NCBI GenBank assembly: GCA_022360955.1
Contig: JAKSBV010000046.1
Span: 1 to 33,605 of the forward strand
DNA: 33,605 nucleotides
Source: Bacillota bacterium
GTDB taxonomy: Bacteria > Bacillota > Clostridia > SK-Y3
Direction: 5' to 3'
Every line of letters begins with the position of its first letter. Position 1 is the stretch's first letter. The position numbers were made by a program, and so were the translations under genes. A model generated the notes under the pieces. It saw only the letters and a program-made list of their open reading frames with translations. It did no database searches and had not been told where the DNA came from. This document shows, piece by piece, positions 5,444-28,825 of this stretch.

Positions 5444-5545
5444 CTGTCAATGCCTTATGAACAAGCTGCACCAAGGCCGGCGAGCGGAGGTCGGACAGCC
5501 CTTAGTTGGGTTGAGGGCTGAGGCTTGAGGATGCTGCGTTGACAG
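5444..5545. repeat. Structured repeat with inverted ends and GTTGAGG-type array
   Basis: CTGTCAATGC at 5444-5453 pairs with GCGTTGACAG at 5536-5545 (nine of ten positions), enclosing a second perfect 7-bp stem, CAGCCCT (5496-5502) with AGGGCTG (5514-5520). The loop and right flank read as seven-base units (GTTGAGG, GCTGAGG, CTTGAGG). The words TGTCAATGCCTT and GTTGAGGGCTGAG are shared with the longer repeats elsewhere in the window, so this is probably a shortened relative. Confidence 0.6.
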
Positions 5546-5561
5546 GTGCTAATTTTTCTAT

Positions 5562-5652
5562 GTGACATGGGGACTGAACCATCTGACACATACGGTTTTA
5601 GTGTGTCTGGGGGTCTGTCCCCATGTCACTTTCCCGAATGGGCATGTCATTT
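5562..5652. repeat. REP-like long imperfect palindrome, copy 1
   Basis: Positions 5562-5629 form a 68-base imperfect palindrome: GTGACATGGGGAC at the left is matched by GTCCCCATGTCAC at the right, and the inner parts (CTGACACATA and TGTGTCTGGG) continue the stem. It is followed by TTTCCCGAATGGGCATGTCATTT. The last 32 bases (5621-5652) recur at 25190-25221 with two differences. Hairpins of the GTGACATGGGGAC kind are dispersed in Firmicute genomes and resemble REP-type elements; no transposase gene is present here. Confidence 0.7.
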
Positions 5653-5736
5653 GTTTATCGTGTGATATAGCAAAACGCGTTAACGCAATCAAATGCGGCC
5701 TTTTCCGACTTCCGCTTTCTGATTTCCGGCCTCCGC

Positions 5737-5799
5737 AAGGACAGATTTTACGATTATACTTCCGCAGGAAGTGTATTCGTGAGGTCTGTCCTTGTTTTT
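5737..5799 (+). terminator. Long stem-loop followed by T-run
   Basis: AAGGACAGA (5737-5745) pairs with TCTGTCCTT (5785-5793), and inside it ACGATTATACTTCC pairs with GGAAGTGTATTCGT (12 of 14) around a GCA loop. The stem is followed by GTTTTT. This has the form of a rho-independent terminator. It lies about 330 bases after the last importer gene, so it may end that transcript or belong to the repeat that carries it. Confidence 0.6.
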
Positions 5800-5885
5800 A
5801 AGAGGAACCAATGCCCCGTCATTACAGTCTATATATTTTGTAGAAAACTTTTTACGCGGATTTTGCCGCCGATATTGCCAAAGAT

Positions 5886-6074
5886 ATGCTTTCGTCATTT
5901 AAATGTATTTTTAGGCTGCGGTTGATGATCTTTAGTGAATCAAAATATATTATTTTGTCAAATACTAAATATAACATGTTTTTTACAAATGATGGTCAAA
6001 TGATTGAAAAGGAAGATATTAACGGATATAATAGAATGGTTCAAGCGTTTATTTTGAACGCCAAGGAGCAATGA
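5886..6074 (+). CDS. Doubtful 62-residue reading frame, possible gene remnant
   Basis: The frame encodes 62 residues ending in NGYNRMVQAFILNAKEQ. It has no clear ribosome binding site; an inner ATG at 5925 would give 49 residues. I do not recognise a family. The hydrophilic C-terminal half looks more protein-like than the N-terminal half, so it could be the tail of a decayed gene or chance. Confidence 0.2.
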   Translation: MLSSFKCIFRLRLMIFSESKYIILSNTKYNMFFTNDGQMIEKEDINGYNRMVQAFILNAKEQ

Positions 6075-6162
6075 AGACAGGACTTGCGTTTTTCGTGTCT
6101 CTTAGATTGAAATATACTCCGTATAAGATGCGGATTACGAAATAGACGGAAAGGAAATGGAG

Positions 6163-6912
6163 ATGGAAATTTCACTTGTTATCCCCGCATATAATGAAGA
6201 GAATAGAATTACGGATACGGTCCGCAGCATATTGGATTTTTTAGAAGAACATTTTGAAACCTATGAAGTGATCGTTGTGGATGATGGGAGCACGGACGGG
6301 ACCGTAGAACGATTAAGGCAATGTGACGATAAACACTTGGAGATCCTGTGCCTGGGGCAAAACCAGGGGAAGGGACAGGCGATTAAAACCGGAATGGCTG
6401 CAACAACGGGACGGTATTGCTTTTTTACCGATGCGGATCTGCCCTACCGGTTGGAGAGTATACGTCATGCGATGGATCTATTTAAAGAGACCGATGTACA
6501 ATTGGTGATAGGTTCCAGAGACTTATTCAAGGACAAGCCCGATGCCCCTTATCCCCTGCATAGAAAAATAATGTCCAAAATTTTTTCCGCATATATCAAT
6601 ACGGTTTTGGACTTGGGTATTTCCGATACCCAGTGTGGATTTAAAGCGTTCACCTATGATGCGGCCAAAAGTATTTTTCCCGTGCTGTCCGTCCGGGGAT
6701 TCAGCTTTGATGTAGAATTGTTGTATGTCGCCCGGAAATATAAGATGGGCATACGCAGTATCCCTGTGAACATGCGCTACACGGAAGATTCAAAGATTAA
6801 TATTATTGCCGATTCCTTGAAAATGGTATTGGACACGTTGAAGGTAAAGATCAACGATCGGAAAGGCTTGTATGAGATGAGCCACGGAGCGGCAGAAAGC
6901 AGGGAGGGATAG
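6163..6912 (+). CDS. Family 2 glycosyltransferase, ALG5/polyprenyl-phosphate-sugar synthase-like
   Basis: This 249-residue GT-A enzyme resembles the dolichyl-phosphate beta-glucosyltransferase (ALG5) branch of family GT2, which moves a sugar from a nucleotide donor to a polyprenyl phosphate at the inner membrane face. Key blocks are VIPAYNEENR, VVDDGSTDGT, the metal-binding FTDADLPY, LGISDTQCGFKAF and FSFDVELLYVARK. There is no C-terminal membrane domain. Two starts are possible: ATG 6157 abuts the AAGGA at 6151-6155, whereas ATG 6163 is seven bases from it and is preferred. It is the first gene of the envelope cluster, with a flippase-like membrane protein right behind it, so it probably supplies a lipid-linked sugar for that protein or for the later membrane-bound transferase. 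The sugar is not readable from sequence. Confidence 0.88.
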   Translation: MEISLVIPAYNEENRITDTVRSILDFLEEHFETYEVIVVDDGSTDGTVERLRQCDDKHLEILCLGQNQGKGQAIKTGMAATTGRYCFFTDADLPYRLESIRHAMDLFKETDVQLVIGSRDLFKDKPDAPYPLHRKIMSKIFSAYINTVLDLGISDTQCGFKAFTYDAAKSIFPVLSVRGFSFDVELLYVARKYKMGIRSIPVNMRYTEDSKINIIADSLKMVLDTLKVKINDRKGLYEMSHGAAESREG

Positions 6913-6927
6913 GAGGGAGACGGTGCT

Positions 6928-7896
6928 ATGAAGAAGTATATTAAATTGGTAATAGGCATCGCATTTACGGCAGTATTCCTTTTTCTGTCCTATAAGAGCG
7001 TAGGAGAACTGGATTTTAGAAAAGTATTTACATACCCGTTGAACTATCTGCTGATCCCCTTATCGGCACTCTTTTTTGTACTTGCTCATTGGTTTAGGAG
7101 CCTTGCATGGAGCAGAGGACTGAACAAGCGATTAAGGACCGCAGGGGTATTTAGAGCGGTATGCATGGGTACCGCAACGAATATGGTAATGCCCTTTCGC
7201 ATGGGCGAAGCCGTGCGAGTGGCAGCACTGGGACAGGCGTACAAAGATATAGACCAAGAAAAGGATAAGGCACTTTACTATAAAGCCGGCACAAATAGTG
7301 TAGCGGAAAGGCTTGTAGATGGCACTATTTTTGTATTTTTGGCAGCGGCTATGGTGTTTTTTGTAGATTTTGAAGCGGAGGTTACGAGAAAGATTTATTG
7401 GCTGAGGAACTTGATTTTAGCGGGTATTCCGGCCGGTATATTGGCATTCGGCATTTTCCGTCATCTTTGGCTAAATCATAAGCTGCGGTTTAAATGGGTT
7501 GAAAAAGTATTTAGCGTTGCCGAAGAAATGGCGCTTGTGAATTCACCCGGGGTGATTGTGAGTGTGATAGGCTATTTGTTGACAGCGTGGTTGTGTGTCT
7601 ATATATGTATTGTGATAGGGTTGCTGAGCGTAGGCGTTGCCTCTGCAAAAGTTTTGCCTATTGCGCTTACCGTTTTGATCATGACGAATTTGGCCGTACT
7701 GCTTCCGGCCGTACCGGGCGGCATCGGTGTTTTTGAATATGCATGCATCTATTCCCTTGGCTTATTCGGTATATCGGGCATACAGGCAGCGGTATCTGCC
7801 ATCTTGCTCCATTTGATTCAATATATGGCCTTGCTGCCTTTGGGACTGTACTTCTGCATTACGTCAAAGATTTGGCGTTCAATGCCTAAAGGGTAG
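6928..7896 (+). CDS. Membrane protein of the lysylphosphatidylglycerol synthase TM / flippase family
   Basis: The product has 322 residues and about seven or eight membrane helices. It fits the family named for the membrane part of MprF (PF03706; AglD-like), which lacks the MprF synthase domain here. Recognisable blocks are TNMVMPFRMGEAVRVAAL, NSVAERLVDGTIFVFLA and LLPAVPGGIGVFEYACIYSLG. Stand-alone members often sit beside GT2 glycosyltransferases and are suspected to move lipids or lipid-linked sugars across the membrane. The start ATG lies seven bases after GGGAGA within a longer GGAGGGAG purine block, only 15 bases after the upstream stop, so the pair is co-transcribed. It is unlikely to make lysyl-phosphatidylglycerol. 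Confidence 0.85.
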   Translation: MKKYIKLVIGIAFTAVFLFLSYKSVGELDFRKVFTYPLNYLLIPLSALFFVLAHWFRSLAWSRGLNKRLRTAGVFRAVCMGTATNMVMPFRMGEAVRVAALGQAYKDIDQEKDKALYYKAGTNSVAERLVDGTIFVFLAAAMVFFVDFEAEVTRKIYWLRNLILAGIPAGILAFGIFRHLWLNHKLRFKWVEKVFSVAEEMALVNSPGVIVSVIGYLLTAWLCVYICIVIGLLSVGVASAKVLPIALTVLIMTNLAVLLPAVPGGIGVFEYACIYSLGLFGISGIQAAVSAILLHLIQYMALLPLGLYFCITSKIWRSMPKG

Positions 7897-8235
7897 CTTA
7901 CCGTATATAAGCCAGGTTTACTGTAGATTCTTTTTCGTGATCTGCAGTACTGCCTTTGGATACATAGACAACGTACCATAAAATTTAGAAATATAATAGT
8001 ACTCCGGCAACGGGCATTCCAAGACTAAAAAGTAGTTGAGGGCTGAGAATACCTTACCACACACGACATTTTGTGCTGATTACTTTGTGTTCCTGTTTGG
8101 CTATTCCGACTTCCGCCCTGTGACCTCCGACCTCAGGTACATAAGGTTGCCTCCATATAATTATATTTCTAGTTCTAGTGTGTGGTATTTATAAATCCTT
8201 CAAGCGATAAACTAAAAACCAACGAGGTATCAAAA
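7897..8235. other. Intergenic stretch mostly occupied by a repeat
   Basis: Apart from a weak stem (ACTGTAGAT at 7920-7928 with ATCTGCAGT at 7940-7948, eight of nine, no T-run), the gap is a copy of the MITE-like repeat up to about 8192. The remaining 43 bases hold the ribosome binding site of the next gene. Confidence 0.7.
7964..8192 (+). repeat. MITE-like intergenic repeat, copy A
   Basis: The inner ends TAGAAATATAAT (7986-7997) and ATTATATTTCTA (8160-8171) are perfect inverted repeats. The outer ends (ATAGACAACGTACCATAAAATT and AGTTCTAGTGTGTGGTATTTAT) also resemble each other inverted. The core contains ACTCCGGCAACGGGCATTCC, GTTGAGGGCTGAGA, CTGATTACTTTGTGTTCCTG and a GACTTCC-type seven-base array, all shared with the copies near 19081, 25301 and 28610. 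There is no reading frame for a transposase. Confidence 0.78.
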
Positions 8236-9876
8236 ATGAACCAACTCAATAAATGGGTGAACGTCAAAAGTTTTTGGTTCACCTTTATCGGACTGATGTT
8301 AATAAAATACGGTTATTATGGTTTCGAGTATTTTCCCGTGCTGGATGACTGGATCCAATATGGGGGATACCCCTTTTATCCTGATATATTCCAAGATGTG
8401 ATCCTGGAGATGAAGACCTACACTGCCCGGCCGTTAGCTTCGCTTTCCGACCCGTATATTTGGGGACAATTTTGGGGTATGATGGGCATTCCTTTTTTGA
8501 TCATTACCCTGCTGCACGCGGCGAGCGGATATTTTTTGTATAAAGTGCTTGCAGCGCAGAAATTATTCGTAGGTATGCCCTTTTTAGTGGTGTATGGATT
8601 GCTGCCTTTGGGGAGTGAGGCAACCTATTGGATTTCCGCTTCTTCCAGAATTGTTGTAGGTGTGTTCTGGATGGCTTTGGCTTTATTTCTGTTGAGTTTG
8701 TATGTTGACAACGGGAAAAAGGGCTACTTGTGGGCCTTTTTTGCCACCCATTTGTTTTCACTGGGATATTATGAACAGGTGCTTGTACTCAGCTGCTCTT
8801 GTGCCGTACTGTTACTCCTCGGGAATTGGAAGAGGCTTCGGTCAAAATGGGTGCTGGGTATTCCCTTTTTTAACTTTGGGGTTATTGTCCTCTATTACAG
8901 GGTCTTTGGCAGCATGGGCAATGTGGCGCAGAGAGGACAGATGGTTAAAAGCGATTACATTTCCCATTTTATGCTGGTCTATGATAAAGTTACCGACATA
9001 TGGGGAAGAGTACAGATACCTTTACTCAGCAATGGCTTGAGGAGAGGTTTGGAAGTGCTGGTTGAAAACCGGTCCTATTTATTTTTAGCGTTGATCGTAT
9101 GCATAAGTGCGGCAGCGGCCGTTTTCAGCCTGAAAAAAGTTTGGACTTCGGCACCGGGGGCCAGGCATGAGCCCAAGAGCCCTGTCAAAATGCACAGTGT
9201 ACAAATTGTGCTGGGGGGCTTGCTGTTCTGGATTCCTTTTGCCCCTAACTTTTTATTGGAAACGGTGTGGATTTGTAATCGCAATGCGTTTACTTCTTTT
9301 ATCGGGCTGGGATTGGCAGTAGAAGGGGTGCTGGGGCTTGTTTTCAGGGGTAAAATCGGTACGTATTTGAAAGCCGCGGGTGTGCTGGTGGTTACCTTTG
9401 TTTTCCTAATCGTCAATGTTTCGGAAATCACCGACTATAAAAGGGCGAGTGAAATAGACCGGGAAATATGTACGAATATCCTGGAGGCCGTCGACGATCC
9501 TGCGTTTTTCGAAGGACAGCGTGAGGTGATCGTCTTAAATGCCCAATCGGCCTATATGGAACAAAACAGTTATCATAACGATCATATACATAATATCACC
9601 TCCAGTGACTGGGCATTGACAGGAGGTCTGCGGGCAGTTGCTCAAAATGTCCGCATCAAAACGCTTATTATGCAGTGTTATCCCGGAAGCGGTATTAAAA
9701 TGGACCCCCAGGCCTGGGACACGGCGATTATCCTTGGCATAGAAGAGGACTTATCGGTGGTACCCCTGTCGGTTAAGCAAAAGACGGACGGAGAAGTCTT
9801 ATTATCGGAAACAACAGGGGAACATTTTGGCAAAGCCCTATTGGACAACAAGGGGAGATATGTATTCGGACGATGA
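8236..9876 (+). CDS. Large multi-pass membrane protein, possible GT-C type glycosyltransferase
   Basis: This 546-residue protein has about ten or more hydrophobic segments and a soluble C-terminal region of about 120 residues. The first extracytoplasmic loop reads FPVLDDWIQYGG and then ARPLASLSDPYIWGQ. An Asp-Asp pair in the first loop and an R-P-L following it are what GT-C membrane glycosyltransferases and related DUF6056/GtrII-like proteins show, so a transferase using a polyprenyl-phosphate sugar is plausible; I do not recognise the exact family. A longer frame starts with GTG at 8182, but that codon is inside the repeat; ATG 8236 with CGAGGT upstream is the likely start. The GT2 enzyme at 6163 could make its donor. 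Confidence 0.6.
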   Translation: MNQLNKWVNVKSFWFTFIGLMLIKYGYYGFEYFPVLDDWIQYGGYPFYPDIFQDVILEMKTYTARPLASLSDPYIWGQFWGMMGIPFLIITLLHAASGYFLYKVLAAQKLFVGMPFLVVYGLLPLGSEATYWISASSRIVVGVFWMALALFLLSLYVDNGKKGYLWAFFATHLFSLGYYEQVLVLSCSCAVLLLLGNWKRLRSKWVLGIPFFNFGVIVLYYRVFGSMGNVAQRGQMVKSDYISHFMLVYDKVTDIWGRVQIPLLSNGLRRGLEVLVENRSYLFLALIVCISAAAAVFSLKKVWTSAPGARHEPKSPVKMHSVQIVLGGLLFWIPFAPNFLLETVWICNRNAFTSFIGLGLAVEGVLGLVFRGKIGTYLKAAGVLVVTFVFLIVNVSEITDYKRASEIDREICTNILEAVDDPAFFEGQREVIVLNAQSAYMEQNSYHNDHIHNITSSDWALTGGLRAVAQNVRIKTLIMQCYPGSGIKMDPQAWDTAIILGIEEDLSVVPLSVKQKTDGEVLLSETTGEHFGKALLDNKGRYVFGR

Positions 9877-9932
9877 GTGTTCTGCTTTACATCTGCGGGA
9901 AGGAATAATATAATAGTGAGGAGTTCGGAATA

Positions 9933-13489: not shown

Positions 13490-13515
13490 TATAAAGAGAA
13501 GCTGGAGGAGTAGCT

Positions 13516-14622: not shown

Positions 14623-14666
14623 GAAGTGGGGCGCAGATCCAGCATAAACGCAAGGAGGTATAATAG

Positions 14667-15158
14667 ATGGCAATTGTTGATAAGCAAGGCAGGTTATTTG
14701 GCAAAATCAATATCATTGATTTATCCTTTATATTGATCGCTTTATTGGTCGTAGGTTTTATTTATGTTCAATATTTCAGGGGAGCGGACAACGGAGAAGC
14801 AGCAGGCAAAAGAATAGAGTATGAGGTTGAGTTGAAGATTAAAACGAAAGAGTATGCGGACGTCATAAAGATAGGCGATGAAATTAGAGACAGCATAAAG
14901 GGCCACTACTTGGGGAAGGTCATTGAGAAAAAGGTATTGCCTGCTTTTACGATCAATGAAAATGCGGAAAAAGGGGAGTATGTGAAAGCGGAAGTACCCG
15001 ACCGGTATGATGTGATTCTGACGTTGGAAGCCAATGGGATTGTGACGCCCGGGAGTATCTTGGCGGAAGGTGTAGAAGTCAAAGTAGGTCAGAAAATGTA
15101 TATAAAAGGAAAAGGGTATGCCAGCCGCGGTTATATTTTGGGGCTGAGATATGAGTAG
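14667..15158 (+). CDS. DUF4330 membrane-anchored protein, first of a tandem pair
   Basis: The 163-residue protein begins MAIVDKQGRLFGKINIIDLSF, then one membrane helix (about residues 20-40), and then a soluble domain outside the membrane with KIKTKEYADVIKIGDEIRD, a YLGKVIEKKV strand and a VEVKVGQKMYIKGKGYASRGYILG ending. The cytoplasmic G-R-L-F-G-K motif and this layout fit the DUF4330 family, whose function is unknown. A strong AAGGAGG lies upstream. It follows the GT4 gene by 44 bases and is followed by a paralogue, which suggests a role in export or assembly of the polymer made by this cluster, by position only. Confidence 0.8.
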   Translation: MAIVDKQGRLFGKINIIDLSFILIALLVVGFIYVQYFRGADNGEAAGKRIEYEVELKIKTKEYADVIKIGDEIRDSIKGHYLGKVIEKKVLPAFTINENAEKGEYVKAEVPDRYDVILTLEANGIVTPGSILAEGVEVKVGQKMYIKGKGYASRGYILGLRYE

Positions 15159-15166
15159 GATAGTTG

Positions 15167-15204
15167 AGAAGCGCTGAGGGTTGAAGGTTGAGAGTTGATG
15201 GAAT
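15167..15204 (+). repeat. Seven-base-period array GTTGAGG between the two DUF4330 genes
   Basis: Just after the first stop codon the sequence runs as seven-base units: GCTGAGG, GTTGAAG, GTTGAGA, GTTGATG. The same units form part of the dispersed MITE-like repeats in this window. It fills most of the short gap, yet leaves the next gene's ribosome binding site intact. Confidence 0.7.
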
Positions 15205-15234
15205 GATTTATAGATGACGGGAGGAGCGATAGGG

Positions 15235-15735
15235 ATGTTAATTGACGAAAAAGGCAGGCTTTTTGGCAAGGTGAGTGTAGTGGATATCCTTGTGGTATTG
15301 TTTATCGTTGGAGCCGTTGCCGGCGCGTATTATAAATTCTTTATAGCGGAAAGAGGGGGTGCGGCTGCGCAATTCGATACCCTCCAATATCAGGTGATAA
15401 CAGTGAGCGGTGTACGTCAACCTTCGGTAGATGCGGTTAAAGAAGGTGCGGAGGTTTTTGACGGTGAGACCGGCGGGTATATAGGTAAAGTGATTCAAAA
15501 GGATATATCCCCTGCGAAGAGCTTCATAAAGAAGACAGACGGGACCTATGCAGAAGCCCGGATGCCGGATAAATTTGATGTGATTATAACGGTTGAAGTG
15601 ACAGGGGTGGAGAATGACCATGGTTTTTTTGCCAATGGCAACATAGAAATCAAGAGAGGGTCGGACCTTAAATTTAAAACCCAAATGATCATGCTTGAGA
15701 CAAGGGTAGTAGATGTCAGAAGAATTAAGAATTAA
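15235..15735 (+). CDS. DUF4330 membrane-anchored protein, second of a tandem pair
   Basis: The 166-residue product is a diverged paralogue of the preceding protein. It has the same start (MLIDEKGRLFGKVSVVDILVVL), a single membrane helix at about residues 15-35, and an outer domain with VKEGAEVFDGETGGYIGKVIQK, ARMPDKFDVIITVEVTG and a GNIEIKRGSDLKFKT segment. The frame opens at ATG 15214, but GGGAGGAG at 15219-15226 places the start at ATG 15235, eight bases downstream. The last codons (RRIKN and stop) are made of a GAATTAA-type seven-base repeat that continues past the stop, so the C-terminal tail may have been reshaped by that array. Function unknown; probably pairs with its neighbour. Confidence 0.8.
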   Translation: MLIDEKGRLFGKVSVVDILVVLFIVGAVAGAYYKFFIAERGGAAAQFDTLQYQVITVSGVRQPSVDAVKEGAEVFDGETGGYIGKVIQKDISPAKSFIKKTDGTYAEARMPDKFDVIITVEVTGVENDHGFFANGNIEIKRGSDLKFKTQMIMLETRVVDVRRIKN

Positions 15736-15749
15736 GAATGAAGAATTAG
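15719..15749 (+). repeat. AT-rich seven-base-period array across a stop codon
   Basis: About four units (GAATTAA, GAATTAA, GAATGAA, GAATTAG) overlap the end of the second DUF4330 gene, supplying its final codons and stop codon. It has the same unit length as the GTTGAGG and GACTTCC arrays but a different sequence. Confidence 0.65.
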
Positions 15750-15802
15750 ATTTTGGGGGATTTATATATTATTTTAAAATAAAGAATAGATCATAAGATA
15801 AA

Positions 15803-15836: not shown

Positions 15837-15857
15837 TGATTTTAAAGTTGGTTATCT

Positions 15858-18695: not shown

Positions 18696-18723
18696 AGGTA
18701 TGGTCCTTTCTTTTGGTAAGTTC

Positions 18724-18776: not shown

Positions 18777-18780
18777 ACTT

Positions 18781-18809
18781 ATTATATAGTATTTCCAATT
18801 CTGTGTATA
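18781..18809 (-). promoter_or_regulatory. Candidate promoter of the glycosidase gene
   Basis: On the minus strand TATACA (at 18809-18804) and TATAAT (at 18786-18781) are separated by 17 bases, a good sigma-A arrangement with a perfect -10 box and four of six -35 matches. The predicted leader is about 80 bases and contains the inverted repeat above. Confidence 0.45.
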
Positions 18810-18904
18810 TAGATCACAAGGGGTTAAATCTTAAAATTCTGTTAATCGGATATTAAGTTTTATTAACAAAGAAAATGACATTATTTCCTACATTAAACTT
18901 TTTC

Positions 18905-18997
18905 ATGACACAGTTCACGACACCTTGCTGCTGATTACTTTCCGTTCCTTGTTTGGTCATATTCCGAGCTCTGACTTCCGATCTCAGGTACATAAAT
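18905..18997 (+). repeat. Fragment (right half) of the MITE-like repeat
   Basis: The words CTTGCTGCTGATTACTTT, GTTCCTTGTTTGGTCATATTCCGA, CTGACTTCCGATCTCAGG and GTACATAA match the right half of copy A, including the exact CTCAGGTACATAA junction. The left half and the terminal inverted repeat are missing. Confidence 0.65.
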
Positions 18998-19080
18998 TTT
19001 TTTAACTATATTAAATGTACCCATATATAAAATAATGAATTGAATTTATCTACCGGTTAGCATATAATTGAGTATGGAAT

Positions 19081-19290
19081 ATAGATAATAAACAGTAAAG
19101 TTGGAAATATAATCGTATTCCAGCAACAGGTATTCCGAATCTGAAAAATAGTTGAAGGCTGAGAGATGAGGGTTGAGAATGAACCGTGGACCGTTTGCGA
19201 GACCTTGTCGCTGATTACTTTGTGTTCCTGTTCGGTTATATTCCGATCTCCGGTTTATATACTTCCACACGATTATATTTCTATCTCTAG
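19081..19290 (+). repeat. MITE-like intergenic repeat, copy B
   Basis: GAAATATAATCG (19104-19115) and CGATTATATTTC (19270-19281) are perfect 12-bp inverted repeats. The left outer end ATAGATAATAAACAGTAAAG matches the outer end of the inverted copy near 28825. The core has the array GTTGAAG, GCTGAGA, GATGAGG, GTTGAGA and the conserved CTGATTACTTTGTGTTCCTG block. No coding capacity. Confidence 0.78.
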
Positions 19291-19347
19291 TAGGGATGAT
19301 CATCCGTAAACGCCGGATAACAAATTTGAAGCGGAGAAGGTGAAAGG

Positions 19348-21491: not shown

Positions 21492-21521
21492 TACGTTCGA
21501 TCTATAAAAAAACTAATATTG

Positions 21522-21584
21522 GTTTAGAGTTGAGGGTTCAGGGTTAACGGTTTCGGTTTCTTCTCCGGGCACCCAACTCCAAAC
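21522..21584. repeat. Hairpin built from a GTTGAGG-type array, ahead of csaB
   Basis: GTTTAGAGTTGAGG (21522-21535) pairs with CCCAACTCCAAAC (21572-21584) with one bulge. The left side continues in seven-base units (GTTGAGG, GTTCAGG, GTTAACG, GTTTCGG). It lies inside the deacetylase-tagA unit, 12 bases before the csaB ribosome binding site, and could act on the mRNA. Confidence 0.55.
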
Positions 21585-21609
21585 GCCGAACTACAAAGGA
21601 GCAAAACTT

Positions 21610-22716
21610 ATGTATGACGTAATGGTATCCGGGTATTACGGATTTAAAAATAGTGGTGATGATGCCCTGTTGATGGCAATGATTGATAGTCTTCGCATGT
21701 TTAAAAAGGACATCAAAATACTGGTGTTGTCCATGAACCCCAAAGAGACAAAAAAAATCTACGGTGTGGATGCGATCAACCGATTTAATGTGTTTCAAAT
21801 CCTATGGGCGATGAAACGCTCAAAACTGTTGATAAACGGTGGCGGAAGTCTTATTCAGGATATTACCAGTACCCAATCCTTAATGTATTATCTGAGCATT
21901 ATATGGATGGCCAAAAAGATGGGACTGAAAGTCATGGTATACGCCAACGGCATCGGTCCGATTTATAAAGAGGCGAACCGAAAGCTGACCAAAAGAATTG
22001 TAAATCAGGTAGATATGATTACCTTAAGGGAGGAAGGCTCCAGGCAGGAATTGCGTAGGCTGGACATTCAAAAGCCGCCTATCCTGGTAACGGCAGATCC
22101 TGCATTGACATTGGAAGCTGTAGACGGACATGCGGTTGATGAAGTATTTCAAAAAGAAAAGATAGATTGTTCCGGTCCGTTAATAGGGTTTTCGCTGAGA
22201 GATTGGAAAGGACATGAGAAAAGATACGGCGCAGTCATTGCGCAAATAGCCGACTATATGATTGAAAAATACAATGCAAAGCCGGTGTTTATCCCGATGC
22301 AATACCCTAGAGATCTCCCCATTGCCCAAAAGATTGTTTCCATGATGAAAGGGAAAGGTTATATTATCGAGAATCAATATAGTGTTTTGCAGACTTTGGG
22401 GATCGTGAAAAAAATGGATATGCTTATCGGTATGAGACTGCATACGCTTATCTATGCCGCCAGCCTGGGGGTTCCGTTAATCGGCCTGGTATATGAGCCG
22501 AAAGTGGCAGGCTTTTTAGAATATGTCCGTCAAAAATCGGCGGGGGATGTCACCCAATTGGAAACCGAGAAATTGAGGCAGTTGGTAGATGAGGTCTGGA
22601 ACAAAAGGGACAGCGTGAGAAAAGAGCTGGAACAAGTTACCGCGGATTTAAAGCAAAAAGCGCTGGAAAATGCGAAATTGGCAGTTGAGCTTTTGGACAA
22701 GCAGGTGAAAAGATGA
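21610..22716 (+). CDS. csaB: Polysaccharide pyruvyl transferase
   Basis: The 368-residue product matches CsaB. The N-terminus is DVMVSGYYGFKNSGDDALLMAMIDSLR, followed by LLINGGGSLIQDITSTQSLMYYLS, MVYANGIGPIYKEANRKL, TADPALTLE and the C-terminal KKMDMLIGMRLHTLIYAASLGVPLIGLVYEPKV. The enzyme adds pyruvyl ketals from phosphoenolpyruvate to secondary cell-wall polysaccharide, and SLH-domain proteins bind that pyruvylated polymer. An AAGGAG lies upstream at normal distance, and the stop overlaps the next start as ATGA. Its presence is the main reason to read this cluster as an S-layer anchoring polymer pathway. No SLH-domain protein is encoded in the window. Confidence 0.95.
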   Translation: MYDVMVSGYYGFKNSGDDALLMAMIDSLRMFKKDIKILVLSMNPKETKKIYGVDAINRFNVFQILWAMKRSKLLINGGGSLIQDITSTQSLMYYLSIIWMAKKMGLKVMVYANGIGPIYKEANRKLTKRIVNQVDMITLREEGSRQELRRLDIQKPPILVTADPALTLEAVDGHAVDEVFQKEKIDCSGPLIGFSLRDWKGHEKRYGAVIAQIADYMIEKYNAKPVFIPMQYPRDLPIAQKIVSMMKGKGYIIENQYSVLQTLGIVKKMDMLIGMRLHTLIYAASLGVPLIGLVYEPKVAGFLEYVRQKSAGDVTQLETEKLRQLVDEVWNKRDSVRKELEQVTADLKQKALENAKLAVELLDKQVKR

Positions 22717-23447
22717 GAGAGATGCTGGACGTGCTGGGTGTAAATATTGACATGGTTACGCTTGAACAGGCGGAACAGAAGATTTGGGCGTTTTTAAAGG
22801 GTGAAAAACTGCGTATGGTTTTTACGCCGAACTCCGAAATGATTATGCTTGCACGCAAAGATGGGGCATTGAAGCAGGTCTTGAATGGCGGTGACTTGGT
22901 GATTGCCGAAGGGATTGGTGTGGTTTACGCGTCCGGAATACTGGGAAAGCCTCTTGCAGAGAGGGTGGCAGGTTTTGACACAGCCAAAAGGATGATCACA
23001 AAGCTGCCGGAAAAGGGCTACACGTTGTTTCTGCTGGGAGGAGCGCCCGGGGTTGCCGAAACGGCGAAGGAAAACTTGGAGAAGCAATATCCCGGCATTC
23101 GCATTGCAGGTACACAGGACGGATATTTTGACGAACAAAAGGAGCAGCAAATCATTGCAGACGTGAATCGAATAAAGCCCGATATCCTTTTTGTATGTCT
23201 GGGGATGTCCAAACAGGAAAAATGGATTTACAACAATCGTGATAAGCTGAACGTTAAAGTCTGTATGGGCATTGGTGGCAGTTTGGATGTCTTTGCGGGG
23301 AAAGCCCGGAGAGCACCGGACTTTTATTGTAAATACGGATTGGAATGGTTTTACCGATTAATGAAAGAGCCCTGGCGTTATAAACGCATGATGGCCCTGC
23401 CGAAGTTTGCCTTGACGGTGATTTGGGAGAAGATAAAAGGGGATTAG
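22713..23447 (+). CDS. tagA: WecG/TagA/CpsF family glycosyltransferase
   Basis: The 244-residue enzyme is a full-length GT26 protein. It has VNIDMVTLEQAEQKI, FTPNSEMIMLARKD, LVIAEGIGVVYAS, LFLLGGAPGVAETAKENLE, LFVCLGMSKQEKWIY, GIGGSLDVFAGKARRAP and the C-terminal GLEWFYRLMKEPWRYKRM segment that completes the active site at the membrane. In wall teichoic acid synthesis TagA adds N-acetylmannosamine to undecaprenyl-diphosphate-GlcNAc; related enzymes use other sugars. The acidic residue before the GIGVV motif is Glu here, where many homologues have Asp. Start and csaB stop overlap by four bases. It probably performs an early step on the lipid-linked polymer. Confidence 0.93.
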   Translation: MREMLDVLGVNIDMVTLEQAEQKIWAFLKGEKLRMVFTPNSEMIMLARKDGALKQVLNGGDLVIAEGIGVVYASGILGKPLAERVAGFDTAKRMITKLPEKGYTLFLLGGAPGVAETAKENLEKQYPGIRIAGTQDGYFDEQKEQQIIADVNRIKPDILFVCLGMSKQEKWIYNNRDKLNVKVCMGIGGSLDVFAGKARRAPDFYCKYGLEWFYRLMKEPWRYKRMMALPKFALTVIWEKIKGD

Positions 23448-23600
23448 GTAGTTGGGAGTGAGGGGTGGGGAGGATGGTTTGAGTGTTTCGAAACGGAGTG
23501 AGTGAAAGCGAGGGAGTCGTTGCTGTGCTGCATAAACAACGTATGATGCACTGTAGGAGATAGATCCTTAGCCCTCAACGCTCAACAAATTCTTAGTGCT
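23448..23600 (+). repeat. Seven-base-period arrays downstream of tagA
   Basis: Directly after the tagA stop the sequence reads in G-rich units (GTTGGGA, GTGAGGG, GTGGGGA), and near 23571-23587 CCCTCAACGCTCAAC is the same type of array on the opposite strand. The two could pair across about 100 bases. No gene and no clear terminator is seen. Confidence 0.5.
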
Positions 23601-23656
23601 TAGTTTAAACCAGTACAAGTTGTAAAATAGATGAAAAAACAAATGGGGGAATAGAA

Positions 23657-24424
23657 ATGACGGCATTAAAGGTTGAACTTTTGCAGTATACGCGTGAGCC
23701 TCAGAAGCTCATAGCGGCAGCAGCCAAGTTGTGTTATTCCAGTTCCGGCATAGAAGGGATTATGGAAGGTTTAACACCGGAAAAGACAGAGGACTTTTTG
23801 GAAAGGTTACTGGCTTTAGGGCATGAAAGCCCTATTGAGCATGTATGCTTTACTTTTGGTGTAGAAGGGGTCAGCAGAAGTCTGCTGGCACAGATAACCC
23901 GTCATAGAATTGCCAGTTTCAGTGTGAAATCCCAGCGGTATGTGAAGGAAGGACAATTTGAATATGTCGTTCCGCCGGAAATAGCCTGCGAGCCCAAGGC
24001 CAAAGAAATATTCATGCAGGCAATGGCACAGGACCAGCAGACCTACAATGAATTGGCGGATATGCTCGCATCAAAACACTATCGGACATTGATCGGGCAG
24101 GGCAAAACAGAAAAGCAGGCTAGACGTATAGCGGAAAAAAAGGCCATTGAAGATGCACGGTATGTGCTGCCCAATGCCTGTGAGACAAAGATGATTGTAA
24201 CCATGAATGCACGGAGTCTGCAAAATTTCTTTCACCACCGGTGCTGTGAAAGGGCCCAGTGGGAAATTAGGGAATTGTCCATAGAAATGCTAAAACTGGT
24301 ACGTGCAGTGGCTCCGACCATATTTAAGCACTCCGGCCCCGTATGTGTTGCGGCTGCTTGTCCCGAAGGCAAAATGAGCTGCGGTGGGTCAAAGGAGAAA
24401 AAAGAATTTTTTAGGAGCTTGTAA
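23657..24424 (+). CDS. thyX: Flavin-dependent thymidylate synthase
   Basis: The 255-residue product is ThyX, which makes dTMP from dUMP with FAD, NADPH and methylene-tetrahydrofolate in the cytoplasm. The signature RHR-x7-S is present as [14 protein letters not shown], and [25 protein letters not shown] precedes it. Later blocks are [37 protein letters not shown], typical of the family. The C-terminal tail is Cys-rich ([15 protein letters not shown]), as in several clostridial ThyX proteins. GGGGGAA upstream of the ATG serves as binding site. The gene is followed by tmk with one base between stop and start, so two successive steps of dTTP synthesis are co-expressed. Confidence 0.96.
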
Positions 24425-24425
24425 G

Positions 24426-25085
24426 ATGGGAAAAAAAGGTATGTATATCGTATTTGAAGGGCCGGACGGTTCCGGCAAATCCGTCCAGGCGAAAAAAATA
24501 GTGGGGCGTTTGAATGCACGGGGCATGAAAACGGTTCATTTTCGAGAACCGGGCGGGGAACTGGGAAGAGAAAATACCATAGGGGAAAAGATCCGTGGGT
24601 TGCTTCAGGATAAAGACAACAAAATCAATCCCATGTGCGAACTCGCGTTATTTACCGCCAATCGTGCGCAGTTGATTGAGGAGATTAAAGCATATACGGA
24701 TCAAGGCATTCATGTGCTGTGTGAAAGGAACTTTCTATCTTCGGTGGTTTATCAGGGTTATGGGAGAGGGATCAATACGGACTTCATCCTGCAAGTGACG
24801 CAGATGTTTGTAGAGAAGCTTCCCGATTTGGTTGTGCTTTATAAGGTAAGTGAGCAAGAAGGAGGAGAAAGGGTAAACCGGCGGGGTGAAAAGGATAGAA
24901 TAGAGCAAGAATCTATAGCATTCCATAAAAGGATATTTGAAGGGTACGGGCAGTTGAAGGCAGTTTGCGATAAATTGGAGATACCATGTGTTGAAATAGA
25001 TACGGATCATAAAGATTGGGATACTTATGAGCAGAGGGTGATGGAGCGCATAACGGCAATGGGACATGCGGAAGGCAGAAATTAG
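24426..25085 (+). CDS. tmk: Thymidylate kinase (dTMP kinase)
   Basis: This 219-residue P-loop kinase phosphorylates dTMP, the product of the neighbouring ThyX. Motifs are IVFEGPDGSGKSVQAKKI (P-loop), FREPGGELGRENTIGEKIR (dTMP-binding arginine and glycine loop), NRAQLIEEI, CERNFLSSVVYQGYGRG in the place of the usual D-R-Y-x-x-S-x-x-A-Y-Q-G, and LPDLVVLYKVSEQEGGERVNRRGEKDRIEQESIAFHKRIFEGY covering the lid region. A longer frame begins inside thyX at 24384, but AGGAG at 24413-24417 sits eight bases before ATG 24426, which is chosen. Asp is replaced by Glu in the D-R motif, a conservative change. A seven-base array starts right after its stop codon. Confidence 0.92.
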   Translation: MGKKGMYIVFEGPDGSGKSVQAKKIVGRLNARGMKTVHFREPGGELGRENTIGEKIRGLLQDKDNKINPMCELALFTANRAQLIEEIKAYTDQGIHVLCERNFLSSVVYQGYGRGINTDFILQVTQMFVEKLPDLVVLYKVSEQEGGERVNRRGEKDRIEQESIAFHKRIFEGYGQLKAVCDKLEIPCVEIDTDHKDWDTYEQRVMERITAMGHAEGRN

Positions 25086-25157
25086 AGGTCGGAAGTCTGA
25101 AATCCGAATTTCATAAATATTGTTGAAGAATTTTTTAGTCCGATTTCCGGTTGGACC

Positions 25158-25221
25158 CACACGCTTTTCGTGTGTTTGAGGGTTTGGACCCATGTCACTT
25201 TCCCGAATAGGTATGTCATTT
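25158..25221. repeat. REP-like element, copy 2 (damaged left arm)
   Basis: CACACG (25158-25163) and CGTGTG (25169-25174) form a small stem, and the right part GGACCCATGTCACTTTCCCG onward matches copy 1. Positions 25190-25221 agree with 5621-5652 at 30 of 32 bases. The GTGACATGGG left arm of copy 1 is missing. Confidence 0.6.
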
Positions 25222-25252
25222 ATTATATTAATCTATATCGTGAAATCTTTCT

Positions 25253-25300
25253 AAATCATTCCCGGCCGATTTTTTCGATTTAGGAATGATTTTTGTATTT
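25253..25300 (+). terminator. Rho-independent terminator downstream of thyX-tmk
   Basis: AAATCATTCC (25253-25262) and GGAATGATTT (25283-25292) are a perfect 10-bp stem around 20 bases, followed by TTGTATTT. It lies about 170 bases after tmk and is the best candidate to end that transcript. Confidence 0.7.
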
Positions 25301-25545
25301 ATAGGTAACACATTGAAAGATTGAAATATAATCGTACTCCGGCAACGGGGAGTACATAAATTTGAAGTGAAGAAAATTATTCCAATAACTGATATTCCAA
25401 GGCTGAAAAACAGTTGAAGGTTGAGTGCTGAGGGTTGAAAATGGATTGCTTGCCGTTGACAATGCCTTGTTGTTGCCTGCTTTCTTCTCCTGTTCGTCGC
25501 ATTCAGACCTCCGCCCTCTGACTTCCGATCTCTGGCCATCCATAC
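25301..25545 (+). repeat. MITE-like intergenic repeat, copy C, rearranged
   Basis: The left end (ATAGGTAACACATTGAAAG, GAAATATAATCG, TACTCCGGCAACGGG) matches the other copies and then jumps to AGTACATAAATTT, a word from the right half. A second, diverged start follows (GAAAATTATTCC to GATATTCCAAGGCTGAAAAACAG), with arrays GTTGAAG, GTTGAGT, GCTGAGG, GTTGAAA and GACCTCC, GCCCTCT, GACTTCC, GATCTCT. The right terminal inverted repeat is missing. It looks like one copy joined to part of another. Confidence 0.7.
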
Positions 25546-25624
25546 AATAAAAAACTGCACAATTTTTTTTAAAAAAAAGAAGGATTTTTGGAATGAATGC
25601 CGAATATATATTAATATCAAGGAA

Positions 25625-25638
25625 ATTAACCGTTTTAC
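25625..25638. promoter_or_regulatory. LacI-type operator-like site, distal
   Basis: TTAACCGTTTTA has the near-palindromic layout with central CG typical of LacI-family operators. It resembles the site next to the regulator gene (TTAAACGTTTTA) and the perfect dyad downstream of it. Confidence 0.4.
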
Positions 25639-25730
25639 CAACTCCGAATAAAATTAGTGCGTTTTGCACAGTGACAATACGATTATTTCCTATTTTTGTA
25701 GTAGATTTGCTGAAATAATAAAATGAATTA

Positions 25731-25742
25731 TTAAACGTTTTA
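25731..25742. promoter_or_regulatory. LacI-type operator-like site next to the regulator start
   Basis: TTAAACGTTTTA with a perfect AAACGTTT core lies directly before the ribosome binding site of the LacI-family gene. Binding here would block its own transcription, so autoregulation is likely. Confidence 0.5.
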
Positions 25743-25754
25743 CTGGAGGTTATG

Positions 25755-26774
25755 ATGGCGACAATCAATGACATTGCAAAGGCTGCCGGTGTCTCAAAAG
25801 CTACGGTATCCAATGTATTTACAAAGAAAAAGCCGGTCGGTCAAGAAATAAAGCAAAGGGTGTTGGAAGTTTGTAAAGAGCTGAATTATTACCCTAACAG
25901 GATGGCATCCAGTTTGGTTACCAAAAGAACAAATATCATTGGGCTTTTGCTTGAAAACAGCAAAGAGAAATTTAAGCATTTTTATGGTGATTTAATCAAT
26001 GGCGTTATGACCTCTGCCGCCAAATGCGGCTATAAGGTTTTGTTGGATGCGTGTACGGATGATTATGAGCAGGTGCACACCACTTTGATTGCAAGGTCGG
26101 ACCCCATTGACGGCTCGATTATACATGCCCCGATTATAGAAGACGACAGGATCTTGGAGATGATTGACAAACACATTCCTTTCGTATTGATCGGCAGACC
26201 GTCCGATGAGATTGATGAAGGGATTTTCTACATAGATGTCAACAATGTAGATTTGGCTTGCAAAACGACGACGCACTTGTTGCAGCTGGGACATAGGGAG
26301 ATTGGTTTTTTGAACAGCAGACCGAATATGACGATTACTTTTGATAGATTGAAGGGATATATAGAGGCGTTAGGTGCATACGGAATCCCTTTTAATCCTT
26401 CTCTGGTATACAATAGTGATAACACCGCCGCAACCGGGAAGGTTACCTGCAGCGAGCTGTTGAAAAACAATCCTCAAGTGACGGCGATGATTACCTGTTC
26501 CGACGACGTTGCGGTTGGAGTCTATGATGTGTTGGAAAAGAAGGGGTATCGCATACCCGATGATATTTCGGTCATTGCGTTAGGGGGAGACGACTATAGC
26601 GGCATGCTGGAACCCCGTCTAACAACCGTTTTGATTGATTACAGAAAAATGGGAAAATTAGCTGTTGAACTGCTGTTGAAGAGAATTAAAAAGGAACCTG
26701 TTGATGAAAAAAGGATTATTGTTGAGGCAAAGACCTTTAAAGGGGAATCCTGTACGGTATGTCCGAAGAAGTAA
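25755..26774 (+). CDS. LacI-family transcriptional regulator
   Basis: This 339-residue regulator has an N-terminal helix-turn-helix (ATINDIAKAAGVSKATVSNVF, residues 2-22), the hinge helix region YYPNRMASSLVTKRTNIIGLLL, and a periplasmic-binding-protein-like effector domain with GSIIHAPIIEDDRI, THLLQLGHREIGFLNSRPNMTITFDRLKGYIEAL, MITCSDDVAVGVYDVLEKKGYRIPDDISVIALGGDDY and PRLTTVLIDYRKMGKLAVELLLKRI. It should repress or activate the transporter and mannosidase genes downstream in response to a sugar. ATG 25752 is only two bases from GGAGG, so the next codon, ATG 25755, is the preferred start. Operator-like dyads lie before and after the gene. The effector is unknown, probably a mannoside by context. 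Confidence 0.93.
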   Translation: MATINDIAKAAGVSKATVSNVFTKKKPVGQEIKQRVLEVCKELNYYPNRMASSLVTKRTNIIGLLLENSKEKFKHFYGDLINGVMTSAAKCGYKVLLDACTDDYEQVHTTLIARSDPIDGSIIHAPIIEDDRILEMIDKHIPFVLIGRPSDEIDEGIFYIDVNNVDLACKTTTHLLQLGHREIGFLNSRPNMTITFDRLKGYIEALGAYGIPFNPSLVYNSDNTAATGKVTCSELLKNNPQVTAMITCSDDVAVGVYDVLEKKGYRIPDDISVIALGGDDYSGMLEPRLTTVLIDYRKMGKLAVELLLKRIKKEPVDEKRIIVEAKTFKGESCTVCPKK

Positions 26775-27162
26775 TTTTTGGAACTGTTATTTAACCGGTT
26801 AACCACATGGGAATGCAATATACGGAACCATTCAGTATGAAGTCGGCGCCGTTTTCACCAAAGAAAGCATTTTGCAGGCCGATGGTGTATAGATACCCAA
26901 CTTTAAAGCTGAATTTATATTTACACAAAAAACGCAAAACCATCGTTATTTGTATAAATAGTATGCTTGGGTTGCAGTTTGTTATCTTACCTGATCCGTA
27001 CAAGGGTCCGGCCTGTTAAAGGAATACATACGGAACATAAAAGGGTGTTCCGCAAGAAATATAGGAGGTGATTGCAAAACTATATTTCCCGTATTCGGTT
27101 ATTCTATATTTATCACAACCTTATCGTAAGATTTAAAATTGTCAAAGGAGGAATGGTATCAC
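26775..27162. other. Regulatory gap upstream of the sugar transporter
   Basis: The stretch holds the perfect dyad at 26792, no convincing gene, and at 27063-27070 a strong AGGAGGTG without a recognised gene after it. A TTG at 27072 opens 35 codons that end inside the start of the lipoprotein gene. Short frames on both strands (26807-27019 and 26791-27003) lack binding sites. No convincing -35/-10 pair was found by eye. Confidence 0.55.
26792..26803. promoter_or_regulatory. Perfect LacI-family operator dyad TTAACCGGTTAA
   Basis: A perfect 12-bp palindrome with central CCGG, 17 bases after the regulator stop and ahead of the transporter operon. It matches the two sites upstream of the regulator in layout and is the best candidate for control of the sugar genes. 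Confidence 0.6.
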
Positions 27163-28488
27163 ATGAAAAAGTCTAGAAAACTCTTATCATTAGTGCTGTG
27201 CGTATGCTTGCTTATTACACTCGTAGGGCTGATAGGGTGCGGAAATACGAGCCCGGAAGAGCAGCCCGGACAACAAGACGATCAAAATCAAGGGGAAAAA
27301 TCGAAAGATGATGCAAAAAAACCTGTTGAATTAAAAATCTGGTGGGCGGAAGGCGATCAATTTAAAGCCATATTACTGGACGCAATATTGGCTTATAGGG
27401 ATGTTAATCCCCATGTCAAAATTGTTCCGCAATGGCAGCCGAACTTTGATACATACGATAAGTTAAAGGTTGCAATAGCAGGAAAGACTGCTCCCGACAT
27501 CACAAAACTCGACTCCGTTTTTGCACCGGCCTTGGGATTTAAAGGACAGCTTGTAGACCTTACACAATTCGGAGCAAATGACATTAAGGACAAATTCATT
27601 GAATCGACATGGAAAGCCGGTATGTACAAGGAGCAGGTCTATGCACTGCCCTTTGATGCCAACACCATTGCTTTTTTCTATAACAAAGATATACTCGACA
27701 AAGCCGGAAAAGAGCCTCCTAAGACCTATGAGGAAATCATTGAGGTAGGCAAAGCGATCGAAGCGCTGAATTTACCGGACACCTATGCCTATACGGTGCC
27801 TGTGACTTCCGGCACGAGCGGATGGCTGGCATTCCAGTGGAACTTCTGGCTGTGGAGAAACGGGGGGGAAGTGCTTAACGAAGATTGGACAAAAGCCGTA
27901 TATAACAGCCCGGAAGGTGTAGAAGCACTGCAGAAAGTGGTTGATTTGGTACACAAACATGAAGTGGTGCCGCCGAATGTTTATCTTGAACCGGAATTTT
28001 ATGACGGCAACGTCGGCATGCTGGATATGGGCTGCTGGAATGTGCCTGTCATTACCGGAGAAGATGCTCAGGCAAACTTCGGCATTACGACAATGCCGGC
28101 ACTAAAGGACGGCGTTCCCGGACATTCCGGACTGGGACTTTACAGTATAGGTGTGCTGACAAGCTGTAAGGCACAACAAGAAGCCTATGAATTTGTAAAA
28201 TTCCTTGCAACCAATAAGGAATATCAGGTCACTTACTCGAAGAAGACGAATCTTATGCCGAGTCTGGTTGAGGCCTACGAGGATGAATATTTCAAAACCC
28301 CGGCGTGGGAAGCATTCTTGGCCCAGCTCAAGATTGCAAAGGCAAGACCCGGTACCCCGGCGTGGCCTGAAATTGCGGAGCATATGAATATAGCGATCCA
28401 GGAAGCCTTAACAGGCAAGAAGACCGCTCAAGAAGCGCTTGACGGTGCGGTTGCAAAGAGTAACGAAGCACTTGCAAAAGTGAAATAA
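27163..28488 (+). CDS. Sugar ABC transporter substrate-binding lipoprotein
   Basis: The 441-residue protein has a lipoprotein signal (MKKSRKLLSLVLCVCLLITL, lipobox L-I-G-C with Cys at 26) and a Gly/Gln/Asp-rich linker, then a family 1 solute-binding domain. Typical parts are LKIWWAEGDQFKAILLDAILAYRD, KLKVAIAGKTAPDITKLDSVFAPAL, YALPFDANTIAFFYNKDILDKAGKEPPKTYEE, WNFWLWRNGGEVLN and MLDMGCWNVPVI. It binds an oligosaccharide or glycoside outside the cell. The frame extends to TTG 27139, but AAAGGAGG (27144-27151) and the lipoprotein signal fix ATG 27163. A hairpin and a repeat separate it from the permease genes, which may hold permease levels below that of the binding protein. The mannosidase gene in the same unit suggests a mannose-containing ligand. 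Confidence 0.93.
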   Translation: MKKSRKLLSLVLCVCLLITLVGLIGCGNTSPEEQPGQQDDQNQGEKSKDDAKKPVELKIWWAEGDQFKAILLDAILAYRDVNPHVKIVPQWQPNFDTYDKLKVAIAGKTAPDITKLDSVFAPALGFKGQLVDLTQFGANDIKDKFIESTWKAGMYKEQVYALPFDANTIAFFYNKDILDKAGKEPPKTYEEIIEVGKAIEALNLPDTYAYTVPVTSGTSGWLAFQWNFWLWRNGGEVLNEDWTKAVYNSPEGVEALQKVVDLVHKHEVVPPNVYLEPEFYDGNVGMLDMGCWNVPVITGEDAQANFGITTMPALKDGVPGHSGLGLYSIGVLTSCKAQQEAYEFVKFLATNKEYQVTYSKKTNLMPSLVEAYEDEYFKTPAWEAFLAQLKIAKARPGTPAWPEIAEHMNIAIQEALTGKKTAQEALDGAVAKSNEALAKVK

Positions 28489-28497
28489 CATTATAAA

Positions 28498-28578
28498 CCG
28501 GAGATCGGAGGTCAGAGGGCGGAAACTGCCCCGGCAGGAGAGGGTTCAATGCATTGCTGTCTGACTTCCGGCTTCCGG
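28498..28578. repeat. Hairpin of opposed seven-base arrays after the binding-protein gene
   Basis: CCGGAGATCGGAGGTCAG (28498-28515) faces CTGACTTCCGGCTTCCGG (28561-28578), pairing at 14 of 18 positions with several of the rest G-T. Both arms are seven-base arrays. The stem begins ten bases after the stop codon, a position where such structures stabilise or attenuate mRNA. Confidence 0.6.
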
Positions 28579-28609
28579 TACAGTATGTTCCCTTACATTA
28601 ATTCAAGTA

Positions 28610-28825
28610 AAGATAATAAACATTAGCACTAGAAATATAATGGTATGGATAAACCGGAGTTCGGAAAAAGACTAAACAGGGACGGAGAGTAAAATAGCAA
28701 CGAGATGTGGTGCAATACTGGGGACATTCTCAACCCTCATCTCTCAGCCCTCAACTACTTTTTAGTCTTGGAATACCCGTTGCCGGAGTACGATCATATT
28801 TCCAACTTTACAGTGTGCTATCTTT
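28610..28825 (-). repeat. MITE-like intergenic repeat, copy D, inverted
   Basis: Read on the minus strand it starts TAAAGATAGCACACTGTAAAG, TGGAAATATGATCG, TACTCCGGCAACGGGTATTCC, AAGACTAAAAAGTAG, then units GTTGAGG, GCTGAGA, GATGAGG, GTTGAGA; at the other end CCATTATATTTCTA closes the inverted repeat. The inner ends are TAGAAATATAAT (28630-28641) and its inverted partner (28793-28804, one mismatch or more). The middle differs from copies A and B. It lies between the binding-protein and permease genes of one operon. Confidence 0.78.

Follow-up and report, generated by a model that had tools for sequence, protein, structure and literature searches.

Bacterial repeats with a unit of seven bases have so far been described taxon by taxon, with explanations that are equally taxon-specific. 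In heterocystous and other filamentous cyanobacteria, for instance, they are known as short tandemly repeated repetitive (STRR) sequences, with units of the CCCCAGT or CAACAGT type. Here, repeats of this kind are analysed in a stretch of 33,605 nt (hereafter, the window) from the draft genome of a Bacillota bacterium (Clostridia, SK-Y3; GCA_022360955.1, contig JAKSBV010000046.1), where a first-pass annotation had listed 16 short arrays between genes of an envelope locus. Two subjects have to be distinguished: free arrays, which lie at gene borders and often face each other, and a miniature inverted-repeat transposable element (MITE), which carries two such arrays.

The closest described system is that of Rehm et al. 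(2015), who found convergent G-rich heptamers near open reading frames, GGGAATC in Xanthomonas and GGGGA(C/T)T in Nostoc (PMC4692102). The facing geometry is common to both systems; however, there it was explained by the potential to form G-quadruplexes, whereas here the geometry also holds for AT-rich and mixed units, one genome contains several unit classes, and the two arms are matched in unit locus by locus. The TAACTGA repeats that MacGregor (2015; PMC4679880) described in Beggiatoaceae, Cyanobacteria and Bacteroidetes are also heptamer arrays between genes, mostly just 5' of start codons, and strains differ in them by 7-nt increments, but there each genome has one unit, related heptamers are rare and, one inverted case apart, no paired arms are described. 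According to both papers, Mrazek et al. (2007) reported an excess of heptanucleotide tandem repeats, a class of long simple sequence repeats, in many bacteria and proposed slippage with a 7-nt preference. Compared with this class, as presented in the papers citing it, and with cyanobacterial STRR sequences, the arrays of the window show greater degeneracy, and tandem-repeat finders often miss them at their thresholds. The kinship in kind with cyanobacterial heptamers suggested by the first-pass annotation appears to be right. A survey of short tandem repeats across life (PMC12699852) does not discuss heptamers, and cyanobacterial terminator families were discarded as an explanation, the paper concerned (PMC13289151) mentioning no repeats. 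In the open-licence literature, no earlier report was found of this geometry for AT-rich units or of its breadth over phyla, nor of a coupled turnover of the units in both arms, nor of a MITE with the two arrays inside it.

The source genome (G000) is a 4.64 Mb draft in 522 contigs, the window being its contig 306; 1.25 Mb of it was read in pieces and, with genes called by a purpose-written caller, 195 kb of this is intergenic. A complete genome of the same family (G004) was used for comparison. At all 16 listed intervals, lag 7 gives the best self-match among lags 4-11, as had been claimed. Individually, these arrays are short, degenerate and mostly weak (p = 0.00-0.13, measured against random intergenic spots within the array-rich window itself), and Tandem Repeats Finder, in its most lenient setting, recovers no more than five, four with period 7 and one with period 14. 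An exact 14-base search with GACTTCCGACTTCC across its own genome gave no match, because the units are too degenerate, and an Rfam search of the window returned no family.

The seven-base repeats are, however, real and genome-wide. The intergenic DNA of G000 holds 164 arrays of step 7 (840/Mb) against 4-16 for each of the control steps (5, 6 and 8-13) and 6 step-7 arrays in Markov shuffles, step 7 lying about 10-20-fold above the other steps between genes. Coding DNA has 19 step-7 arrays/Mb, which makes them 44 times rarer per base, and the arrays are almost wholly outside coding frames; phase-variation (contingency) repeats, by comparison, switch a coding frame or a promoter through their copy number. 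In agreement with this, autocorrelation peaks at 7, 14 and 21 in intergenic DNA and only at 3 in coding DNA. This over-representation of period 7 between genes, relative to other periods, is that of the heptanucleotide class. Thus, the proposed comparison of period 7 with 6 and 8, and with DNA outside the locus, comes out clearly for 7, and the density considered peculiar to an envelope locus turns out to be a property of the genome. Describing almost every gap as filled was slightly generous, since 9 of the 16 gaps of at least 40 bp hold a listed array. Several unit types do exist, but more than three: the genome contains AATKAAK, AGTGGGN, AGTKGAY, AGTNYGG, GGAAGTC and GGTTGAG, the largest free class (41 of 115) being AATKAAK, which has no G-tracts.

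If an array is oriented by its purine-rich strand, then of the arrays no more than 40 bp from a gene border, 81 of 84 point away from the gene in G000 and 28 of 30 in G004. The median distance from stop codon to array is 0, and free arrays begin at stop codons or just 5' of Shine-Dalgarno sites. On the start side, 21 arrays point away from the gene and 2 toward it, and two arrays that lie in one gap follow the order purine...pyrimidine 23 times and never the opposite one (both genomes). Significant complementarity at the far end of the gap accompanies 20 of 69 and 8 of 21 border arrays. Facing pairs with the purine strand directed away from the gene are also what Rehm et al. described; the G-tracts of their G-quadruplex proposal are missing from AATKAAK, while AGTGGGN would qualify. 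G-quadruplexes are therefore ruled out as a general cause, since AT-rich units obey the same geometry.

The same arrangement is found far beyond Clostridia. A scan of one genome per species with the motif TTAGTGRRK followed by three more units yielded at least 119 stretches, those listed belonging to Acidobacteria, Clostridia, Planctomycetes, Cyanobacteria, Atribacteria, Bacteroidota, Alpha- and Gammaproteobacteria, Campylobacterota, Spirochaetes, Chloroflexota and Peribacteria. Among the matches listed, the purine strand runs away from a nearby gene in 43 arrays and toward it in 2, 49 pairs are in facing order and 1 in the reverse, and outside the searched motif there are 146 arrays of step 7 against 4-43 at steps 5, 6 and 8-13. 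Counted over whole genomes, the motif exceeds its reversed version 278 to 7 in an Acidobacteria genome, 405 to 10 in Nostoc, 358 to 0 in Chamaesiphon and 112 to 0 in a spirochaete; the excess is modest in other genomes, and Campylobacterota match the reversed motif too. Of the close plus/minus pairs listed for that Acidobacteria genome, all 13 are in facing order. By their geometry, breadth and arm matching, the free arrays constitute a bacteria-wide class of facing arrays with units of about seven bases.

The turnover of units was followed in Mesorhizobium, where a single gap, flanked by genes that were named SDR and kinase from their sequence, was traced in 50 species. The array-bearing species have facing arrays at this orthologous position, with a unit that varies between species: GTGAATA, GGCAGTA, GCGAATA, GTGAGTA, GGTGAAT or the 8-mers GGGGAGTA and GGGCAGTA. 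The 8-base step was observed in L306, L313, L314, L322, L327, L329, L370 and L371; thus, the strict fixed step claimed for the window holds there as seven, while orthologous Mesorhizobium sites use units of seven or eight. In species devoid of arrays, the gap has about 25-35 nt (L365-L368) or contains other palindromes; L378 and L379 have unrelated palindromic elements in place of the heptads. The two arms share units more within a species than between species (0.264 vs 0.087; 0 of 10,000 permutations, which ignore the kinship of the species). On a tree of the flanks, L302, L313 and L314 are near sisters, yet their units differ in both arms; the close relatives L373 and L370 have the same spacer, but the arms are 7-mers in one and 8-mers in the other. 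Thus, both arms of a site can take on a new unit with the sequence between them retained.

Within single genomes, 20 Mesorhizobium pairs are all in facing order, with spacers unrelated between loci, and units are shared more within a pair than between pairs (0.44 vs 0.18, p 0.0055, in G069; 0.53 vs 0.34, p 0.002, in G028), from which it follows that each locus has a unit of its own and that the arms are coupled. Copies of one transposon are an unsupported origin for these pairs, because their loops differ, and a genome-wide homogenisation from one template was rejected, taking into account the several unit types per genome and their site-specific matching. One Nostoc gap shows the same behaviour, as judged by eye. 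In Nostoc L403, L404, L406 and L388, the same gap contains purine...pyrimidine palindromes that are nested and have other units (GATTTTA, GGGGGCA).

In the source genome, arrays have also been multiplied by a second route. When one array with its surroundings was compared by BLAST with its own genome, the best ~40 of some 300 candidates scored as copies, and one or two query copies alone gave 38-40 matches genome-wide; the same query found almost nothing in 20 relatives. A profile search recovered 78 merged copies and fragments in 906 kb. The element has about 230-250 bp, and 28 full copies, aligned over ~240 bp, have imperfect terminal inverted repeats (TIRs) of ~38 bp, TAGATAAY...AAATATAATCGTA, one end being TATAGATAAYRMACWGTAAARTTGGAAATATAATCGTA, mirrored at the opposite end. 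Inside are two arrays of four units each, GTTGAGG-like on the left and GACCTCC-like on the right, separated by a spacer. TA is present on the left of 14 of 14 copies and on both sides of 10 of 14, a two-base signature. With inverted repeats at constant ends and a TA target-site duplication, the dispersed element is a TA-targeting MITE. Like others of the IS630/Tc1-mariner type, it is short and non-coding, with TIRs, TA at both ends and tens of copies in the portion of the genome analysed, but it differs from them by its two internal heptad arrays. No empty insertion site was seen, and no facing TIR pair of 0.45-3.5 kb, as expected of an autonomous partner, was found in the 1.25 Mb read. An IS630-type gene was considered as the driver and rejected, as the sole genomic DDE_3 match (L430, contig 400 of G000) has an internal stop and no clear TIRs nearby.

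The spread of this MITE by transposition multiplied its two arrays, which also gain and lose units: the alignment has gaps of 7 and 14 within them, and the span of the right array equals 1 modulo 7 in 8 of 12 measurable copies, the remainder being off-phase. In the window, 11 of the 16 arrays match the MITE, 7 in clear copies and 4 in weaker segments (E about 1e-6); therefore, much of the local density reflects transposon copy number and not repeated local generation. The active repeat-generating process proposed by the first-pass annotation is supported by signs of a generation or homogenisation of units. Its other suggestion, a structure with a fixed period, suits the free pair at 28480-28600, which folds as a DNA hairpin (z -3.17; 0 of 200 shuffles equally stable), but not most MITE-borne pairs, which form neither a cruciform nor a hairpin, their folds being no better than those of shuffles (z about -0.8 to +1.0).

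The features of the window are collected in the table. The 5 of 16 arrays outside MITE matches are all just downstream of stop codons, and those at 15167, 15719, 21528, 23448, 25086 and 28498 start 0-40 nt from a stop codon or contain it. Facing partners were absent from the initial list, for example that at 21570-21596. A second dispersed palindromic element (fam2) has 14 copies in 1.25 Mb, 11 of which adjoin arrays, and a third family (fam3) adjoins them in 7 of 7 copies.

Heptad arrays and array-bearing elements in the window (positions of the whole stretch)
Feature	Position	Strand	Remarks
Diverged MITE-like segment, interior only	5504-5766	+	Purine array 5500-5530, pyrimidine array 5708-5735; E 9e-7, profile positions 82-224
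MITE copy 1	7956-8195	+	GTTGAGG array 8034-8047, GACTTCC/GACCTCC array 8107-8136; profile E 1.7e-45, aligned
Free GGTTGAG array	15167-15204	+	Starts 9 nt past stop of DUF4330 gene 14667-15158
AATTAAG array joined to fam2 (15746-15797)	15719-15797	+	Includes stop of gene 15214-15735; lag-7 identity 0.83
MITE interior fragment	18908-18987	+	Array 18969-18990; profile E 9.3e-10; 62-bp match to neighbouring copy
MITE copy 2	19072-19301	+	GTTGAGG array 19151-19185; profile E 7.4e-60; ~40 further own-genome copies
Purine array GTTGAGG/GTTCAGG/GTTAACG	21528-21557	+	37 nt past stop codon
Facing pyrimidine array CCCAACTCCAAACGCCGAACTAC (AGTTYGG type)	21570-21596	-	Immediately 5' of Shine-Dalgarno of gene 21610; direct sequence reading
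AGTGGGG-type array	23448-23477	+	Immediately 3' of stop of WecG/TagA gene 22713-23447
GGAAGTC array	25086-25108	+	Immediately 3' of thymidylate kinase gene stop
MITE copy 3, broken (25293-25355 and 25373-25548)	25293-25548	+	Arrays 25414-25444 and 25505-25534; E 1.2e-8 and 1.4e-28
Facing pair, GGAGGTC type 28498-28523 and complement 28561-28578	28490-28595		After stop codon; weak MITE-interior match, E 8.4e-7
MITE copy 4	28606-28831	-	CTCAACC array 28729-28757; profile E 3e-56; 91% identical copies elsewhere in genome

Other repeats and duplications occur beside these features. Two neighbouring DUF4330 genes (14667-15735) are tandem duplicates with a free heptad array between them. A palindrome resembling repetitive extragenic palindromes, TGACATGGGGAC...GTCCCCATGTCACTTTCCCGAATRGGYATGTCATTT, is located at 5560-5651, between the arrays 5500-5530 and 5708-5735, and at 25151-25220; it has 11 merged copies in 1.25 Mb, one of which adjoins heptad arrays. 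A stem-loop, AAGGACAG...CTGTCCTTG, lies at 5738-5795, immediately past the pyrimidine array.

An explanation is needed for the observed step, geometry, breadth, coupling of arms, change of unit in place and carriage by a MITE. The reading that we favour, to which we would give slightly better than an even chance, is that inverted arrays are made by slippage and their arms exchange units, with the MITE copying them further in this genome. In this mechanism, the DNA polymerase would slip, preferably by about 7 bases, and so lengthen short purine-rich runs in tight intergenic gaps, and a strand or template switch between inverted arms would copy units from one arm to the other. As the unit type is site-specific, a trans-acting genome-wide template is unneeded. 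Template switching has been reported to homogenise the arms of inverted repeats in yeast evolution (PMC8604942) and to cause quasipalindrome mutations in E. coli (PMC7202029).

Several observations weigh against this reading. The mechanism does not by itself yield the preference for step 7 and for the leading purine strand. Units do not follow a mirrored order in the two arms (20 matches against 19.9 with the order shuffled), so that exact copying through a hairpin is not supported, and mirrored order was rejected as proof of it. The disregard of kinship is a flaw of the species permutation in Mesorhizobium from which the within-genome test is free. A palindrome type with GTGAATA arms and a spacer resembling GGAAGTTATC is shared by L300, L301, L302 and L309, which the flank tree does not join as sisters; this suggests exchange between species or recurrent origin, and it could reflect such exchange rather than turnover in place. 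On the stop side, the orientation has a partly mechanical cause, as stop codons occur in many purine units and the complement strand is open; the start-side counts and the order of pairs are free of that bias. Finally, with a strict threshold, arrays are found in 2 of 70 divergent, 46 of 511 co-directional and 4 of 38 convergent gaps, and this rarity between divergent genes hints at a link with transcript 3' ends.

This last point leads to the main rival, which we consider unlikely on balance: that facing arrays are selected as RNA structures at transcript 3' ends (terminators, processing or end-protecting stem-loops, G-quadruplex or R-loop blocks), slippage only supplying the variation. It would explain why the arrays start at stop codons, with a median distance of 0, why they are common in co-directional and convergent gaps and rare in divergent ones, and why some fold well (28480-28600, z -3.2); Rehm et al. 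likewise saw divergent gaps under-represented and most repeats transcribed, but could not identify a regulatory role (PMC4692102). However, ~60-70% of border arrays lack significant complementarity at the far end of their gap, MITE-borne pairs fold no better than shuffles, AT-rich AATTAAG arrays cannot make G-quadruplexes, and pairing by itself needs no tandem unit of seven bases.

It has also to be considered that facing arrays might be the TIRs of small, independent mobile elements of a foldback-like kind, whose transposase would recognise heptads. The Mesorhizobium inter-arm sequences, different at every locus within a genome, together with units that vary between loci and free pairs without conserved ends, make this improbable, in spite of the purine...pyrimidine geometry, the empty orthologous sites of 25-35 nt and the dispersed families of G000 that adjoin arrays (11 of 14 and 7 of 7 copies). 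We give still less credit to a telomerase-like or other 3'-end-extending enzyme that would add purine-rich heptads at both ends of a break before their head-to-head joining. The purine strand does run 5' to 3' away from the gene on both sides, like telomeric G strands, and arrays that face each other are of the same class; but the unit type varies between loci of one genome, so that a single template cannot serve, and the loop is often conserved between species. We know of no candidate enzyme. As for chance or the composition of purine-rich, low-complexity intergenic DNA, which the short and degenerate single arrays of the window might suggest, it is refuted and practically without probability: the excess is confined to step 7 and its multiples and does not extend to 5, 6 or 8-13, and the reversed motif has 0-10 matches per genome where the motif has 100-400 (Acidobacteria, Nostoc, Chamaesiphon, spirochaete).

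A broader proposal, tentative and on the whole doubtful, is that one general process acting on DNA in most phyla writes facing arrays with units of 7 (sometimes 8-9) bases at gene ends and rewrites both arms together. If this were true, the heptamer repeats of cyanobacteria, Xanthomonas and Beggiatoa would be a single phenomenon, due to a polymerase mechanism that is either dedicated or intrinsic, and would not be G-quadruplex or regulatory elements. The shared geometry and the joint change of the arms make the question of why the step is seven testable as slippage or strand switching at inverted repeats. The MITE represents a second route, in which a transposon captured the arrays and spread them across the genome. 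These arrays are also a warning that what fills the gap between two bacterial genes can be the product of a mutational process and not of regulatory design.

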